This document shows positions 28,519-53,535 of a DNA stretch of 64,000 bases, piece after piece. The stretch is from positions 1 to 64,000 of the forward strand of contig JACPPA010000029.1 of NCBI GenBank assembly GCA_016191285.1. The letters run 5' to 3'. Within the stretch, counting starts at the first letter, position 1; every line of letters starts with the position of its first letter. This DNA is from Gammaproteobacteria bacterium. GTDB lineage: Bacteria > Pseudomonadota > Gammaproteobacteria > Ga0077536. The translations under genes were made by a program, and so were the position numbers. Under the pieces are notes generated by a model. It had not been told where the DNA came from and made no database searches. It was given only the letters and a program-made list of their open reading frames with translations.

Positions 28519-29379
28519 TTAACGATCTTTCGAGGGGCCGATTGCGTTCGCGATTTTTTTCTTTTGCGCTTCGCCCACCGCCTTCAACGCGAGCATGAGC
28601 TTGTTGTCATGATTGATGATCAACTGGAAAAAGCGCTTGGCGACTCGGATAAGCGTTGCGTCCTCATTCGCGCGAACATTCGCGTTGCGTTTCCCGGTGC
28701 CAGTCGGCAACAGCGCTTGTTCACCAAAATAGTGGCCGCGCGTGAGCTCGGAAAGCACCATGATTTTACCGTCGTCATCGGTCACGAAGACTTCGACCGT
28801 GCCATCGAGGACGACATACATGAAGTCCCCATCTTCAGCTTCGCGGACGATGATATCGCCGGCCTTAAACCGGACGACTTCGGTCCACTCGCCAACGTGA
28901 TCCAAATCGCGACTCGATAACGAGCGGAACAACCGCACGCTGCGGAGCATCATGCGGACGCGCTCTTCGGCGTCCACGTTCTCAAAATCCACGATGCCGA
29001 GGTCGTCAGCAGCGGTCATGCCGAGCGTGACATCGGTCTTCGAAATCTTGAACAAACGGCATTTTTGCAGTGCCCGCACGGTGGCATTGCGCCGGCCGCT
29101 CGAACCGGGGAGCAGCGCCTGTTCGCCGAAGAACTCACCGGTCTTTAGCGTGGCAATGGTAATTTCGCGGCCATCAATGGCCTTGATCCGAACATCAACA
29201 GCACCGTCGAGTACGATATACATACAAGTTCCGACCTCGTTTTCTTCGACGATCGGATCGAGCGGCTGGGCTTCCACGATCCCATTAGCCGGCGAATCGA
29301 TGACGCGTTTCAATTCGTCATCGGTAAGGCTGCTGAAGATCGGTACCGAGCGCAGGAGTTGAATGGTGGCGCGTTGCAT
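28519..29379 (-). CDS. Protein with two tandem cyclic-nucleotide-binding domains
   Basis: The product is 286 aa with two CAP_ED domains, at about residues 10-125 and 145-265. Each carries the phosphate-binding cassette signature: GEFFGEQALLPGSSGRRNAT and GHYFGEQALLPTGTGKRNAN. The consensus cNMP-binding cassette has Arg before the final Ala-Thr; here GRRNAT and GKRNAN are close but the second is altered, so ligand binding is uncertain. There is no DNA-binding helix-turn-helix and no kinase. It leads the yadG-yadH genes, suggesting it senses a ligand for that exporter or forms part of its control. Confidence 0.88.
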   Translation of the reverse strand: MQRATIQLLRSVPIFSSLTDDELKRVIDSPANGIVEAQPLDPIVEENEVGTCMYIVLDGAVDVRIKAIDGREITIATLKTGEFFGEQALLPGSSGRRNATVRALQKCRLFKISKTDVTLGMTAADDLGIVDFENVDAEERVRMMLRSVRLFRSLSSRDLDHVGEWTEVVRFKAGDIIVREAEDGDFMYVVLDGTVEVFVTDDDGKIMVLSELTRGHYFGEQALLPTGTGKRNANVRANEDATLIRVAKRFFQLIINHDNKLMLALKAVGEAQKKKIANAIGPSKDR

Positions 29380-29523: not shown

Positions 29524-30042
29524 TTGGACCGGACCGCAAGCTCTACTGCCATTATCATGCGCCACGCCACAGCGGAGGATCCGGCGCGAGCGCGCGATTT
29601 CGAGCGCGCCCTTACGCCCGGCGGTTGCGATGATGCGCGCGCCATGGGGAGGTGGTTACGTCAGCGGTCGCTAAGCATCACCCAGGTGCTGTGTTCGCCG
29701 GCGCTGCGCACCCGGCAAACGGCCGAGTTAGTCCTCGACTGCTGGGCCGATGCACCGCAGGTCGAGGTTACGGCCGGATTGTATTTAGCCGACTGGCCGG
29801 CGTTGGTGGCGACCCTCGAACCGATACGCCGCGGTGCGTTGTTGCTGATTGGGCACAACCCCGGACTTGAGGATTTACTAACGTATATGCTGCCGAGACG
29901 GACGATCGCGCAGATTGCTGGACCGTTACTGCCGCCGGGAGCCCTTTATGTCGTCCACTTTACGGTAGAGGATGGCGTGTTAGTTGAAGGGAGCGGGCAA
30001 CTCCGCACCGCGATGCGACCGCAACTGCTAAGCGCTGAGTAG
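29524..30042 (+). CDS. sixA: Histidine phosphatase, SixA family
   Basis: The product is 172 aa, slightly longer than E. coli SixA, which dephosphorylates HPt histidines of phosphorelays. The RH motif is IIMRHATAEDPARARDFERA, the second conserved Arg is in CSPALRTRQTAEL, and the second His is in LLIGHNPGLEDLL. The start is TTG 29524, as no other start precedes the first motif. It is divergent from the cyclic-nucleotide-domain gene. Confidence 0.9.
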   Translation: MDRTASSTAIIMRHATAEDPARARDFERALTPGGCDDARAMGRWLRQRSLSITQVLCSPALRTRQTAELVLDCWADAPQVEVTAGLYLADWPALVATLEPIRRGALLLIGHNPGLEDLLTYMLPRRTIAQIAGPLLPPGALYVVHFTVEDGVLVEGSGQLRTAMRPQLLSAE

Positions 30043-47196: not shown

Positions 47197-47721
47197 TTAA
47201 AGCGGTCCAGGCCGCACTGGATTCTTCCCATCCCAACCCTTGGCGGCGTCCTCGACCAGCTGAAACAGATCTTTGAAGACCGGCGAGTTATCCCACAGCT
47301 CGATGTAGTGGCCGACGGTTTTCACCGTGTCGAAGTACACGAGCTCAGCGCCACCGACAGTACATTCGAAAGCGGCCGCGTGCCCGCGCGCCCGGTACTC
47401 AGCGCAGGTGGCCTTATAGTCCACCGGCATCATCCCAAAATGATGTACACCCACGCGGCCGGCGTCGAGAAATTCCTTGTAGACCGACGGCGCATCGTTG
47501 TGTTGATAGATCAACTCGATCTGCACATCTCCGCTGTTGCCGAGCGCGAGATCGACATCCACATTCGACGGCTGACCGAAGTAGCGCTGATTCTGCAACG
47601 GGCAATGTTCGAACATAAAAAACGGGCCGACTTTCAGTACCTCGGTCCAATACTTGAGCGCGGCGTCTAGATCACGAACGACATAGGCGACTTGGCGAAT
47701 GGTATACAACGGTTGCGTCAT
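47197..47721 (-). CDS. VOC-family protein (glyoxalase/methylmalonyl-CoA epimerase fold)
   Basis: The product is 174 aa. Two VOC modules are seen, with the opening RQVAYVVRDLDAALKYWTEV and the second module near GRVGVHHFGMM. Candidate metal ligands are the His of VHHFG, the Glu of VQIELIY and the Glu of GHYIELW. The substrate cannot be predicted; members include epimerases, glyoxalases and ring-cleaving dioxygenases. Standing convergent with pncC. Confidence 0.82.
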   Translation of the reverse strand: MTQPLYTIRQVAYVVRDLDAALKYWTEVLKVGPFFMFEHCPLQNQRYFGQPSNVDVDLALGNSGDVQIELIYQHNDAPSVYKEFLDAGRVGVHHFGMMPVDYKATCAEYRARGHAAAFECTVGGAELVYFDTVKTVGHYIELWDNSPVFKDLFQLVEDAAKGWDGKNPVRPGPL

Positions 47722-48038: not shown

Positions 48039-51000
48039 TTATGCGCCGATCGCCGCCTTGAGTTCAGTGACGGGTAACCAGCGCACCAAGGTTTCGCGGA
48101 GCGCGTCGACGGTGATGGGTTTGGTCAAGTAGTCGTCCATGCCGGCAGCCATGCAGCGCTCGCGGTCGCCCGTCATCGCGTTTGCCGTCAACGCAATGAT
48201 GGGGATACGGCTGTCGCCCGCGGCGTTGCTTGATACTGCCTCGTGCCGTCGGATCAGCGTGGCCGCTTCGAAGCCATTCATCTCTGGCATCTGGCAATCC
48301 ATTAGCACTAATGAATAATACCCGTGCTGCCACGCGGCCACCGCTTGGCGGCCGTTAATCACCGCGTCGGACGCAACGCCGAGCGAGTTTAAAATCGCGA
48401 GCGTCACCTGACGGTTGATGTGATTATCTTCCGCGATTAGCACACGGCCGGTCTGCGGCCGTGGTTGAGCGCCGAGCCCAGTCTGCGCCAAGGTCGGTGC
48501 GACCGCCGTGGTCGGCGTCTGGGCTGGTAACGTGAACCAAAATAACGAGCCGACTCGCAATACACTCTTGAAGCCGACTTCGCCACCCATCAATTCGACC
48601 AGTTGCTTGGTGATGGCGAGACCGAGACCGGTGCCGCCGAAGCGTCGCGTCGAGGATTCATCCGCTTGCGTAAACGGCGTGAACAAGCGTTCGGCGGTGT
48701 TATCGTCGATCCCAATTCCGGTGTCCGCGATCTCGAATTTCAACGTCAGATTTTGCGCGCGTGGGTCGCTGTCTTCGGCGAGCTTAAGCGTGATCGAGGC
48801 ATGTCCACGATCGGTAAATTTAATGGCGTTGTTGGTGAGATTCAGTAAGATTTGACGCAGGCGCAAAGGATCGATGAAAACCAGCTCAGGGACCGCGGCA
48901 TCGATTGCGGTAGTCAACTCTAGCGCTTTCTCGTGGGCCCGTGGCCCGAGGATATCCGCGACTTCGCGCACGATATCGCGGGGCGAACATTCGATCAGAT
49001 CAATACTAAGTTTACCGGCCTCAATCTTGGAAAAATCCAGAATATCGTTGACCACGCCCAATAGCACTTGACCCGACCGCTGCGCTACCTGTGCAAATTT
49101 ACGCTGCTCATCGTTGAGCGTCGTATAAAGCAATAGTTCGGTCATGCCGAGCACACCGTTAATTGGTGTGCGGATTTCATGACTCATGTTGGCGAGGAAC
49201 TGGCTTTTCGCGGCGTTCGCCTGCTCGGCCAGGTCTTTGGCCGAACGGAGTTCTTCCTCGACGCGATGGCGTCGATCGAGTGCGTCCGCGAGATCGAGCA
49301 CTCGCTGCTCAAGGCTGGCGTTGGTGGTGACAAGATTTTCGCGCGCATCGCGTAAGCCTTCGCGGGCGCCCGCTAAACCGACGGCAGCTTCTGCGATTTC
49401 TGTTTGTAATGTATTGAAATTGCCGGCCATCTCGCCAAGTTCGTCTTGTGAATAGACCTTCACCGGCACCACATCAACGCGCGCGTGTGCATGCTCCAAT
49501 TCGCCGCGGCCAAGGGCGATCATCGCGCGCGAAAAATCCGCCACCGTCCCACGCGCCAGACGCTCGGCGGCGTTGGCGACGGCTTCGGCTGAGTGGCCGA
49601 TCATCCCCGGGAGAATTAGTCCCACCGAGATAGTCAGCATCGCAACCGCCACGAAGATGTCTTCGAGCATGGCGATCAACGAGGCGTCGGTTTCTCCCGG
49701 CAGCGCGGTGACCGCCATGAAGTAGCCCGCGCCGTCGAGGAGTAATACCACCAGCATCGCGCCGGTAAGTTTGACGTGGAGCGAGCGTTTGATTCCGGTT
49801 AGTCCGCGCGCGCGGCGGTCCTGATAGCGGCGCACGGCATAAAGCAGCGTGCCGGAAAAGGCGAACAGCAAACCAAATAGCACCGTTGGCAAACCAAACT
49901 GCTGAAAGCCCAACAACGCGCTCATCGCCCACACGATGGCGGCCACCAAACCCAACACAATGGTGCCGCGCGGCGCACGATAGGGACGGCGCATTTCCGG
50001 CGCATCCTTGCGCAACAACCACACCGCGACGCTGGGTAGACAGATCCCGATCAAGTAAGTGAAGTTGGCAGCCGCAATGAGCCAAATCGGATCGCCGATC
50101 AGCAAGAAGAATATCGACATCCCGGCAGTGGCGAGCGTCGCGAGCCACGGCGCGTCGGATGGCGCGCGGCGGGCAAAGGCCGCGGGTAACAATCCATCTT
50201 CGGCGAGTTGCGACAGCGTGCGCGCGGCGCCGGCCAGCGGCTGCACCGTGCCATGAAACATGTTCAACATCATGAACCAGATCGCGGCCGCCTTGGCGCT
50301 GGCGCCGAACAGCGGCGCAAAGGTCGGACCGAGCACCAACGCGAGATCCTTGCCGAGCGGCTCGGGGCCGAGTGTGCCCAGCCAGACCACGGGCAGTACG
50401 ATGAAATAAACCGCCGCCATGGCGGCCGAGGCAAACATCGCGCGCGGTACGTTACGCTCCGGATCGATGGTCTCGCCGACATGGCAGGCCGCGGCCTCAA
50501 AGGCCGGCGCCGCAAATCCAATGAGATAAAGCCCCGCCATCGCGCTGGTCAGCTGACCGAAAAAACCGCCGAACGGCGTCGTCAGATGAAAAGTGAGCGC
50601 ACGGGTCCAATCGACTTCGCCCGCGACCGTCGGCATCAATGCTGAGATAAAGGCGAGGCCCGCCGAGCCGGCCGCAATCGGCACCACCAACCGTGCGACC
50701 CATTTGACGCCGCATAGATTGACGCCAGCGAAAAACAGCACGAGGCCGCAGGCCAAGACATTGATGGGCATCCCAGGAAGGTACCAGGCATGAATTGCGG
50801 AAGCGGACAAAATCGCCGTCAAACCGCAGGTCGGCACCCAGCCCCACCAGTAACAGGTCCCCGCCAAATTACCGAGCACCGGCGCATAAGGCCTAAACGC
50901 TTCGCCGCAGGTCGCGGCAATTCCGCCGACCCGGTTTGGCCACATCATAATGAGTTCAGTCCAGCCCGGCAGCGCGGCCCAACTCAGGAGCAGGCCAACG

Positions 51001-51179
51001 ATCAATAGGGGAACGGCAGCACTGCCTTGGCCTGGAATGTCACCCTGGCCGATAAAGAGCGCGGCCAGCAGGAACAGGCTTTGGTTGCTGCCCCCCATGG
51101 CGAGCGCCGATGTGCCGACCCAACCGAGCGTGCGTGGATGGGTAAGCGTGACGGCCGGAGATTCTGTGCTTACCTCCAT
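48039..51179 (-). CDS. APC-permease/hybrid histidine kinase/receiver fusion protein
   Basis: The product is 1046 aa. Residues 1-450 form an APC-superfamily amino-acid permease of about twelve membrane segments (FAAPAFEAAACHVGETIDPE near 222-241). Two more segments (about 471-493, 505-528), a HAMP-like region (535-600) and a coiled coil follow. HisKA has H667 in ANMSHEIRTPINGVLGM. The ATPase has N784 (LTNNAIKF), ADTGIGI with D819, and GTGLGL at 849-854. The receiver (911-1035) has E917/D918, phosphoacceptor D961 and K1020. No HPt domain is present and no partner regulator is adjacent. A permease used as sensor, as in CbrA (a different transporter family), is the inferred role. Confidence 0.9.
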   Translation of the reverse strand: MEVSTESPAVTLTHPRTLGWVGTSALAMGGSNQSLFLLAALFIGQGDIPGQGSAAVPLLIVGLLLSWAALPGWTELIMMWPNRVGGIAATCGEAFRPYAPVLGNLAGTCYWWGWVPTCGLTAILSASAIHAWYLPGMPINVLACGLVLFFAGVNLCGVKWVARLVVPIAAGSAGLAFISALMPTVAGEVDWTRALTFHLTTPFGGFFGQLTSAMAGLYLIGFAAPAFEAAACHVGETIDPERNVPRAMFASAAMAAVYFIVLPVVWLGTLGPEPLGKDLALVLGPTFAPLFGASAKAAAIWFMMLNMFHGTVQPLAGAARTLSQLAEDGLLPAAFARRAPSDAPWLATLATAGMSIFFLLIGDPIWLIAAANFTYLIGICLPSVAVWLLRKDAPEMRRPYRAPRGTIVLGLVAAIVWAMSALLGFQQFGLPTVLFGLLFAFSGTLLYAVRRYQDRRARGLTGIKRSLHVKLTGAMLVVLLLDGAGYFMAVTALPGETDASLIAMLEDIFVAVAMLTISVGLILPGMIGHSAEAVANAAERLARGTVADFSRAMIALGRGELEHAHARVDVVPVKVYSQDELGEMAGNFNTLQTEIAEAAVGLAGAREGLRDARENLVTTNASLEQRVLDLADALDRRHRVEEELRSAKDLAEQANAAKSQFLANMSHEIRTPINGVLGMTELLLYTTLNDEQRKFAQVAQRSGQVLLGVVNDILDFSKIEAGKLSIDLIECSPRDIVREVADILGPRAHEKALELTTAIDAAVPELVFIDPLRLRQILLNLTNNAIKFTDRGHASITLKLAEDSDPRAQNLTLKFEIADTGIGIDDNTAERLFTPFTQADESSTRRFGGTGLGLAITKQLVELMGGEVGFKSVLRVGSLFWFTLPAQTPTTAVAPTLAQTGLGAQPRPQTGRVLIAEDNHINRQVTLAILNSLGVASDAVINGRQAVAAWQHGYYSLVLMDCQMPEMNGFEAATLIRRHEAVSSNAAGDSRIPIIALTANAMTGDRERCMAAGMDDYLTKPITVDALRETLVRWLPVTELKAAIGA

Positions 51180-51678: not shown

Positions 51679-53535
51679 ATGCGCCACCACTCTCATTCCC
51701 ACGCTAGTCATCGCGGATCCACTCCAACGGTGCGTGGCGACTGGAAGACCATTAAAAGCCTCATCCCGTATCTGTGGGATTACCGTTGGCGGATTTTCGT
51801 CGCGCTGTCGTTCTTGATTACCGCCAAGCTCGCCAATGTGGGTGTGCCATTGCTGATGAAGGAAATTGTCGACGCGTTGAGCCCCACCAACGCGTTATTG
51901 ACGATGCCGGTGTTCTTACTGATTGCATATGGCGTGTTGCGCTTGTCGAGCACCCTATTCGCCGAGCTTCGCGACGTGGTCTTTGCCAAGGTGGCGCAGA
52001 ATTCGATTCGCCGCGCGGCGCTCGAAGTTTTCCGTCATTTGCATGATTTAAGCCTCCGGTTTCATCTGGATCGGCAGACCGGTGGCGTATCGCGCGATAT
52101 CGAACGCGGTACGCGCGGCATCGAAAATCTACTGCGCTTTGCGCTCTTCAGCATCATTCCGACGCTGTTCGAGATGGTGCTGGTGGGCGTCATCCTCATC
52201 CGCAAATACAATGTCTGGTTCGCCGTGATTACGCTCGGTGCGCTGATTTTTTATATTACGCTGACGGTACTGGTCACCGAATGGCGCACACAATTTCGCC
52301 GCTCGATGAATGAACTCGATTCAAAGGCGAACTCGCGCGCCATCGACAGCTTGCTTAACTATGAGACCGTCAAGTATTTCAATAACGAAGACTTCGAGGC
52401 GCGCCGCTACGACGAAAATCTGCGGCGCTTGGAGCAGGCCACCGTCAAGAGCCAGACTTCGCTCGGCTTTTTGAACGCGGCGCAAGCGACGACCATTGCC
52501 GCGGCCGTCACGGGGTTGATGGTGCTCGCGGCGCACGGCGTGGTCGCGGGCAGCATGACGGTGGGCGATCTAGTGCTCGTCAATGTGTTGCTGATCCAGC
52601 TTTATATCCCGCTCAATTTTCTCGGCGTGATTTATCGCGAAATTAAACAATCCCTCGCCGACATGGAAAAAATGTTTCGCCTGCTGCGCGAAAATCGCGA
52701 AGTAGCCGACTCACCCAACGCTCATCCACTACGCCTCGATGGCGCAAGTATCCGCTTTGAGCACGTGAGTTTTGGCTACGACCCCAGGCGACAGATCCTG
52801 TTTGACGTGAGCTTTGAAGTGCCAGCGGGCAAGAAGGTGGCGGTGGTGGGGACGAGCGGCGCCGGGAAATCGACGTTGGCGCGGCTGCTATTCCGCTTCT
52901 ATGACGTGACGGGCGGGCGAATTCTGATCAACGGACAAGACCTTCGCGACGTCACGCAGGCGAGTCTGCGGCGAGGCATTGGCATCGTGCCGCAGGATAC
53001 CGTGCTGTTCAACGATACCCTGTGGTACAACATCGCCTATGGTCGCCCGGAGGCCAGCGACGACGAAATTATCAGCGCGGCGAAGTCCGCCCATATTTAC
53101 GATTTCATTCAGTCCCTGCCGGACAAATTTCAAGCGCAGGTGGGCGAACGTGGTTTGAAACTTTCCGGTGGGGAGAAGCAGCGCGTAGCGATTGCGCGCA
53201 CGCTGCTGAAATCGCCCGCGATCCTGATTTTCGACGAAGCGACGTCGGCGCTCGATTCACGCACCGAGAAAAGTATTCAGATGGAATTGCTGGAGATCGC
53301 CCTGAACCGCACGACCTTGGTGATCGCGCATCGCCTATCGACCATTATTGACGCGGATCAGATTCTCGTAATCGAACACGGGCGTATCGTTGAACGTGGC
53401 AATCATCGAGCACTACTCGAGTTGGACGGCATCTACGCGACGATGTGGGCCATGCAACAGCAGGAGGACTTCGAGCAAGAGCCTGCGCTGGCCGCCTTCC
53501 CGAGTCCCGTCGCCGTCGCGAAACAGGCGGTGTGA
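51679..53535 (+). CDS. Atm1/ABCB7-type ABC exporter (fused permease and ATPase)
   Basis: The product is 618 aa, a half-transporter with about six membrane segments (residues 35-320) and a C-terminal ATPase. Walker A is [11 protein letters not shown] (about 391-401), the signature [16 protein letters not shown], Walker [13 protein letters not shown], and the switch His in VIAHRLST. It resembles Atm1/HMT1-like exporters of glutathione or metal conjugates. The N-terminus is histidine-rich ([12 protein letters not shown]), which may bind metal. It ends 75 bp before a SulP remnant. Confidence 0.93.

Follow-up and report, generated by a model that had tools for sequence, protein, structure and literature searches.

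Can a permease of the amino-acid type serve as the sensory input of a histidine kinase? The question is raised by a minus-strand frame in the window (the whole stretch of 64,000 nucleotides that was analysed), which starts with ATG, has its single stop at the end and joins a permease to a hybrid histidine kinase in one unbroken product. We consider it probable (about 0.72) that this fusion is a transporter-derived sensor, in which a ligand of the permease gates the kinase through two added membrane helices (TM13 and TM14) and a HAMP domain.

A permease and a hybrid kinase in one frame

An earlier note on this DNA had described a complete APC-type permease of about twelve membrane segments fused to a hybrid kinase. 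Pfam searches recovered both halves in 1046 amino acids without interruption, and twelve segments were counted on a predicted model. The AA_permease_2 family (PF13520) was matched at residues 18-417 with 95.7 bits against a cut-off of 27, and AA_permease was also listed; SSS/SLC5 was absent from the Pfam matches of the window protein (E up to 0.1), as was any Amt family, the predicted fold being APC. No STAC domain was recognized in the Pfam search, whose library may lack a STAC model, and HAMP stands in the corresponding position. HAMP scored 0.1 bits below the Pfam cut-off of 25 in the window protein and passed it in three relatives scanned whole (35.5, 35.3 and 31.0 bits).

The kinase half is that of a hybrid histidine kinase, with HisKA carrying its histidine, HATPase_c its conserved boxes and the receiver its aspartate. 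H667, D961 and the ATP boxes, to which the earlier note had drawn attention, are invariant in an alignment of 14 hybrid members, and the window protein contains no HPt domain, again as described there. In the permease, 54 sequences share invariant motifs in TM1 (G29, G30, N32, Q33), TM3 (C109-W114, P116, T117), TM6 (F222, A224-A226, E228, H233, E236) and TM10 (N372, Y375), the TM numbers being a reading from the predicted model. Four AA_permease_2 matches were found in the window's own genome (5.1 Mb, 60 contigs); only the fusion sits in a frame of about 1050 codons, the other three frames being 459-566 amino acids long.

Table 1. Features of the fusion gene and nearby genes (positions in the window)
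Feature	Position	Strand	Basis or remark
Whole gene: permease, TM13/TM14, HAMP, coiled coil, HisKA, HATPase, receiver	48039..51179	-	1046 aa
APC/LeuT-fold permease, residues 16-457	49809..51134	-	Pfam; invariant columns in 54 sequences; model and fold matches
Added helix TM13, residues 467-491	49707..49781	-	model; conserved LTGAM/LDGAGY motif
Added helix TM14 continuing into first HAMP helix, residues 499-557	49509..49685	-	model
HAMP domain, residues 548-595	49395..49538	-	Pfam, 24.9 bits; 31.0-35.5 bits in three relatives
Second HAMP helix and signalling coiled coil, residues 580-625	49305..49442	-	model
HisKA, residues 657-722; phospho-acceptor H667 at 49179-49181	49014..49211	-	Pfam; H667 invariant 14/14
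HATPase_c, residues 770-887	48519..48872	-	Pfam; invariant N780, N784, D819, G821, G823, G849, G851
Receiver, residues 913-1030; phospho-acceptor D961 at 48297-48299	48090..48443	-	Pfam; D961 invariant 14/14
Glyoxalase-fold gene	47197-47721	-	neighbour of the fusion
ABC exporter, divergent	51679-53535	+	neighbour of the fusion
SixA-like His_Phos_1 protein	29524-30042	+	32.1 bits; 18 kb from the fusion

Residues 1-626 were modelled from an alignment with 54 relatives, and the model reached a mean pLDDT of 84.8 and a pTM of 0.83 (L022, L041, L045, L049, L054, L058, L060, L062 and L064 were left out of the alignment, as was L071, a duplicate of L005). Membrane segments were counted on this model, in which the sixth of the twelve permease helices is broken at 221-222 and the permease is followed by TM13, by a long TM14 that is predicted to run continuously from the membrane into HAMP, and by the coiled-coil helix. 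Foldseek matched the modelled permease with BasC, LAT1 and AdiC (best E 4.1e-13), and alignment of the predicted model with y+LAT1 (VIA-align) gave a Z of 38.8 and an rmsd of 3.5 over 424 residues, so that the permease part is predicted to have the LeuT/APC fold. The full-length model was poor (pLDDT 69.8, pTM 0.49) and was kept out of the argument.

Distribution and exchanged outputs

Permease-linker peptides recruited 65 loci with relatives at 59-79% identity from the genomes of 84,980 species; because recruitment was by exact peptides this number is a lower bound, and the use of permease peptides favours conserved permeases. By record title, the carriers belong to Pseudomonadota, Verrucomicrobiota, Actinomycetota, Armatimonadota, Vulcanimicrobiota and Chloroflexota. 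Those outside Pseudomonadota are metagenome bins, and the isolates, all Pseudomonadota, are two Mesorhizobium, Hansschlegelia quercus, Paraburkholderia kururiensis, Methylocapsa palsarum and Lichenicoccus roseus. A plasmid collection contributed one further copy, from Paraburkholderia sp. PREW-6R, in which a megaplasmid, complete and circular, encodes a protein of 1188 residues with permease and HAMP followed by HisKA, HATPase, a receiver and HPt.

Homology searches independent of the peptides hit 9 of the 36 genomes from the window's order, a count that includes the window's own genome, one stand-alone permease at 30% identity and several broken genes. Occurrence was limited in larger samples, in which three to four candidates per genome were scored and misses are possible: 1/299 genomes of the phylum sample, namely the window's own; 2/321 in the window's class, again counting the window's; 4/297 in the order that includes the Methylocapsa genome, of which two were known carriers; and 2/288 in the phylum around an Opitutae carrier, the centre of the sample included. 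Beyond the window's own order, the fusion thus occurs in about 1% or fewer of the genomes sampled, which bears out the earlier view of an uncommon architecture. Identities of the matches fall either in 59-84% or in 23-31%, the sole exception being 42% over 106 residues; this sampling yielded no member at 31%-58% over a long stretch and no stand-alone relative above 31% over such a length. The gap in identity and the low frequency together indicate a rare, patchy and discrete family. Each of ten carrier genomes has one gene, split in two pieces in one of them.

Some relatives are split by frameshifts or contain in-frame stops (G007, G013, G020, L041, L058 and L060), and one broken relative comes from the Mesorhizobium isolate WSM3859; gene decay may be a source of the patchy distribution. 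In addition, L069 (7076 bases), from a bin named Klebsiella pneumoniae, has the same match pattern as the genome G020 (L075/L079), from the window's own family, with shared segments at 86.466% and 65.351%, and its species label looks wrong.

The reading frame continues past the linker in 61 of the 65 loci (L044, L065 and L067, at contig ends, and L069, with a split frame, were left out of the tail scans and the tree). Kinase domains are common in these 61 tails (HATPase_c in 33, HisKA in 28, HisKA_2 in 5, the receiver family Response_reg in 20, HPt in 8), and so are domains of c-di-GMP turnover (GGDEF in 26, EAL in 23, HD_5 in 2). The resulting architectures include kinases both simple and hybrid, some of them with HPt, forms bearing PAS or GAF, GGDEF-EAL and GGDEF-HD. 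A literal GGDEF motif is present in 23 of the 26 GGDEF domains, one of the three exceptions being truncated where its contig ends. In three deep members (L054, L062 and L064), HAMP is missing and TM14 leads through a short helix into GGDEF-EAL.

On the best quick tree of the permease (62 labelled rows), seven changes between kinase and c-di-GMP output were counted, of which at least three are forced by well supported branches. The output label is clustered, since shuffled labels gave a mean of 20.0 changes and none of 500 shuffles was as low. Output exchange is therefore real but infrequent. As judged by sequence comparison, the permease half forms a distinct and highly conserved input module whose outputs have been exchanged, and the TM13-TM14 helices and HAMP belong to it. 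The earlier note had recognized the permease-kinase fusion correctly, but it missed TM13-TM14 and HAMP as part of the module as well as the GGDEF-EAL, GGDEF-HD and other kinase outputs.

Constraint on the permease and its possible role

Sensor parts usually change faster than the kinase core. The reverse was observed among the 14 hybrid kinases, in which pairwise identity averaged 70.3% in the permease and 61.7% in TM13-HAMP but fell to 44.5% in the linker, 41.6% in HisKA-HATPase and 36.7% in the receiver. Four-fold sites of the permease differ by 0.61 on average in 1770 pairs (L060, L041 and L058 left out), near the 0.66 expected for unrelated sequences of the same composition, which implies that identity is kept by selection and not by recent common origin. 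The closest pair, the window and L005, is unsaturated (0.40), and its dN/dS (NG86) is about 0.16 in the permease and about 0.12 in the kinase part. Divergence is slightly lower at permease sites than at kinase sites (0.60 vs 0.65), and some extra exchange of permeases may have occurred. Phylum labels changed eight times on the tree for six groups (minimum 5, shuffled mean 23.3). Given nearly saturated silent sites and grouping by phylum, constraint explains the high identity better than recent horizontal spread, which we rejected as its cause. Single transfers are likely for Methylotenera L015, placed inside Verrucomicrobiota, and for the gammaproteobacterial L009, beside Verrucomicrobia L010, all from metagenome bins.

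The constrained residues are the same whichever output follows. Y110, W111, W112, G113 and W114 are shared by 34/34 kinase-type and 26/26 c-di-GMP-type proteins, and F222, P225, E228, H233, N372 and Y375 by 35/35 and 26/26; in the alignment of the two classes, no column had different residues at frequencies of at least 75% in each. Read from the predicted fold, the residues named would fall in ligand-site regions of the LeuT fold. The conservation could instead come from a transport function or from protein contact, and the fact that the module travels with its HAMP is compatible with a permease that binds no ligand and does not prove binding.

Gating of the kinase by a permease ligand could proceed as follows. 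A small ligand, such as an amino acid or amine, would bind the central LeuT-fold site between the permease bundles and shift the TM13-TM14 hairpin; HAMP, continuous with TM14, would turn this movement into a rearrangement of the coiled coil, which would switch autophosphorylation of H667 in whichever direction the response may run. Phosphate would then pass from H667 to D961, to a separate HPt protein encoded elsewhere and on to a regulator. The catalytic half of this chain follows known hybrid-kinase biochemistry; the first half, from ligand to HAMP, is suggested by the anatomy of the protein. Since the same module would drive c-di-GMP enzymes in other bacteria, it may act as a general receptor domain rather than one reserved for this kinase. 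A tentative extension of this idea is that the module represents a new class of receptor, an APC permease without transport that would be specific for a single small molecule throughout the six or more phyla that carry it, and whose pocket would have stayed constant as phosphorelay and c-di-GMP outputs replaced one another.

Several readings of the permease itself must be weighed. A permease that has lost transport and only binds, as in Ks-Amt5, is a serious candidate at somewhat under even odds: the permease was found only in fused form among the loci examined, with one gene per carrier genome (10/10), and TM1 carries GGSNQ where the usual break of such permeases is GSG-like. Sequence cannot by itself decide on transport, and the complete permease fold, the broken TM6 of the model and the conserved motifs of the pocket region would suit a true transceptor, which imports its substrate while the kinase reads flux or the transport cycle. 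CbrA, which is reported both to transport histidine and to signal (PMC7918813, PMC13022988), offers a precedent for such dual function. This reading appears rather unlikely to us, because a working transporter might also occur alone and all kinase and GGDEF forms were seen fused. In one alignment, S172 takes the position that a lysine of TM5 holds in the ordinary permease L001. The corresponding residue of ApcT, K158, couples protons, and the loss of the lysine is a weak hint against transport. A permease that only binds is slightly favoured over one that also transports, since no unfused close relative was seen and the GGSNQ of TM1 is unusual.

The permease might also serve as a membrane anchor or respond to the state of the membrane, while PAS, GAF or other proteins bring in the signal; this would fit the PAS or GAF domains that follow the module in some relatives. 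We regard such a role as improbable, because the permease is the most conserved part, its invariant motifs lie in the predicted ligand-site region, and most forms, including that of the window, have no other recognized input domain. The split relatives mentioned above might also raise the suspicion of a frameshift or assembly join, the very outcome that the earlier note had named as fatal to the fusion. Such an artefact deserves almost no credence: the frame is clean in the window, apart from four loci that are split or reach the end of their contig, all 65 (61 loci) have the same junction, which relatives keep at 59-79% identity, far more than chance would give, and it recurs in several isolates and in the complete megaplasmid. 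A sensor derived from a transporter, its permease ligand gating the kinase, remains our preferred interpretation.

The principle of a transporter as a sensor was already established by CbrA, CrbS/MxtR and Ks-Amt5. CbrA, CrbS/MxtR and RpuS are SLC5/STAC histidine kinases, CrbS/MxtR with a receiver (PMC7918813, PMC13022988, PMC5715377, PMC9100948), and transporter-kinase fusions are called rare with reference to CbrA (PMC13022988). As the earlier note had argued by analogy with CbrA, these kinases, like the fusion, join an N-terminal LeuT-fold transporter to histidine-kinase domains. Unlike them, the fusion has AA_permease_2 (APC) in place of SSS/SLC5 and a linker of a two-helix hairpin and HAMP with no STAC recognized, and its module also feeds GGDEF-EAL and GGDEF-HD. 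Ks-Amt5 is likewise an uptake transporter recruited as a kinase sensor, which is reported to have lost transport and only to bind (PMC5764959); however, it has the Amt fold, is a trimer and consists of a simple kinase without HAMP. MHYT, MASE1 and 5TMR are likewise described as single membrane input modules with GGDEF/EAL or kinase outputs (PMC8846402, PMC11109136), but these are domains of 5-8 helices with other folds, whereas the input of the fusion is a full permease. An APC-family input was not described in the portions searched of PMC11109136, PMC1183210, PMC13022988, PMC8846402, PMC10433425, PMC7918813, PMC5764959, PMC9756655, PMC5847659 and PMC8534201; other domain databases may already list the architecture. 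The family, set apart from these systems by its transporter family, its linker and its range of outputs, did not turn up in the literature searches.

The family thus offers a discrete, single-copy and highly constrained example of a transporter-sensor from a different transporter family. Its members are nature's own chimeras, with the same permease input on a kinase or on a diguanylate cyclase/phosphodiesterase. One ligand would be expected to control two unrelated enzymes, so that the conversion of a transporter fold into a receptor can be studied by direct experiment. Identity of the ligand would name a nutrient signal worth sensing for widely separated soil and freshwater bacteria.

Neighbouring genes, relay partners and candidate ligands

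No regulator adjoins the fusion in the window, as the earlier note had stated; its flanks are the glyoxalase-fold gene and the ABC exporter, and a sigma-70 promoter scan found one promoter-like site against 1.4 in shuffles. Among the relatives, a same-strand kinase or receiver gene was adjacent or one gene further on in 16/34 kinase-type loci and 0/26 GGDEF-type loci, a contrast that would be expected if a kinase depends on a partner protein and a c-di-GMP enzyme works without one. No adjacent partner was found for the window and 18/34 kinase-type loci, in some of which the contig ends nearby. The HisKA_2 forms without receiver (L017, L031, L034, L043 and L058) are each followed directly by a receiver-kinase-receiver gene. 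Receiver-HD genes lie beside the fusion or at most one gene further on in L015, L046 and L048, and receiver-EAL genes in L038 and on the Paraburkholderia megaplasmid, a hint that some kinase forms (4/34 loci and the megaplasmid) may feed c-di-GMP too. A GAF-kinase-receiver gene overlaps or abuts the fusion start in four loci (L056:3593-5944, L061:3764-5974, L038:4067-5950 and L102:6187-7989), which suggests a two-kinase relay.

Clustering of the neighbours in 63 loci revealed no recurring metabolic gene cluster, the largest clusters being signalling genes; the ligand is therefore not readable from gene context. The best NCBIfam permease model for the fusion is that of the TMAO permease TmaoP (NF053774), with 108.5 bits, and several carriers bear methylotroph names in their record titles. 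TmaoP and other AA_permease_2 transporters share the family and the predicted fold of the fusion permease; they are not fused, and the identity to a true TmaoP member, L097, is about 25%. TMAO or methylated amines were rejected as the general ligand, as the score is far under the cut-off of 690 and a true TMAO permease was found in 4/11 carrier genomes searched and was absent from the window's. In a Methylobacillus bin, a gene for a MauG-like di-haem peroxidase follows the fusion (L066:8728-9762).

Six HPt matches over the cut-off were found in the window's own genome (two short ones were inspected as ORFs), so that no single relay partner can be named. Membership of SixA in the same relay, which the earlier note had put forward, was not sustained: the candidate is a generic His_Phos_1 protein at a distance from the fusion (Table 1), and nothing was found tying it to the latter. 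Its ORF adjoins a gene with two cyclic-nucleotide-binding domains (28519-29379, minus strand).
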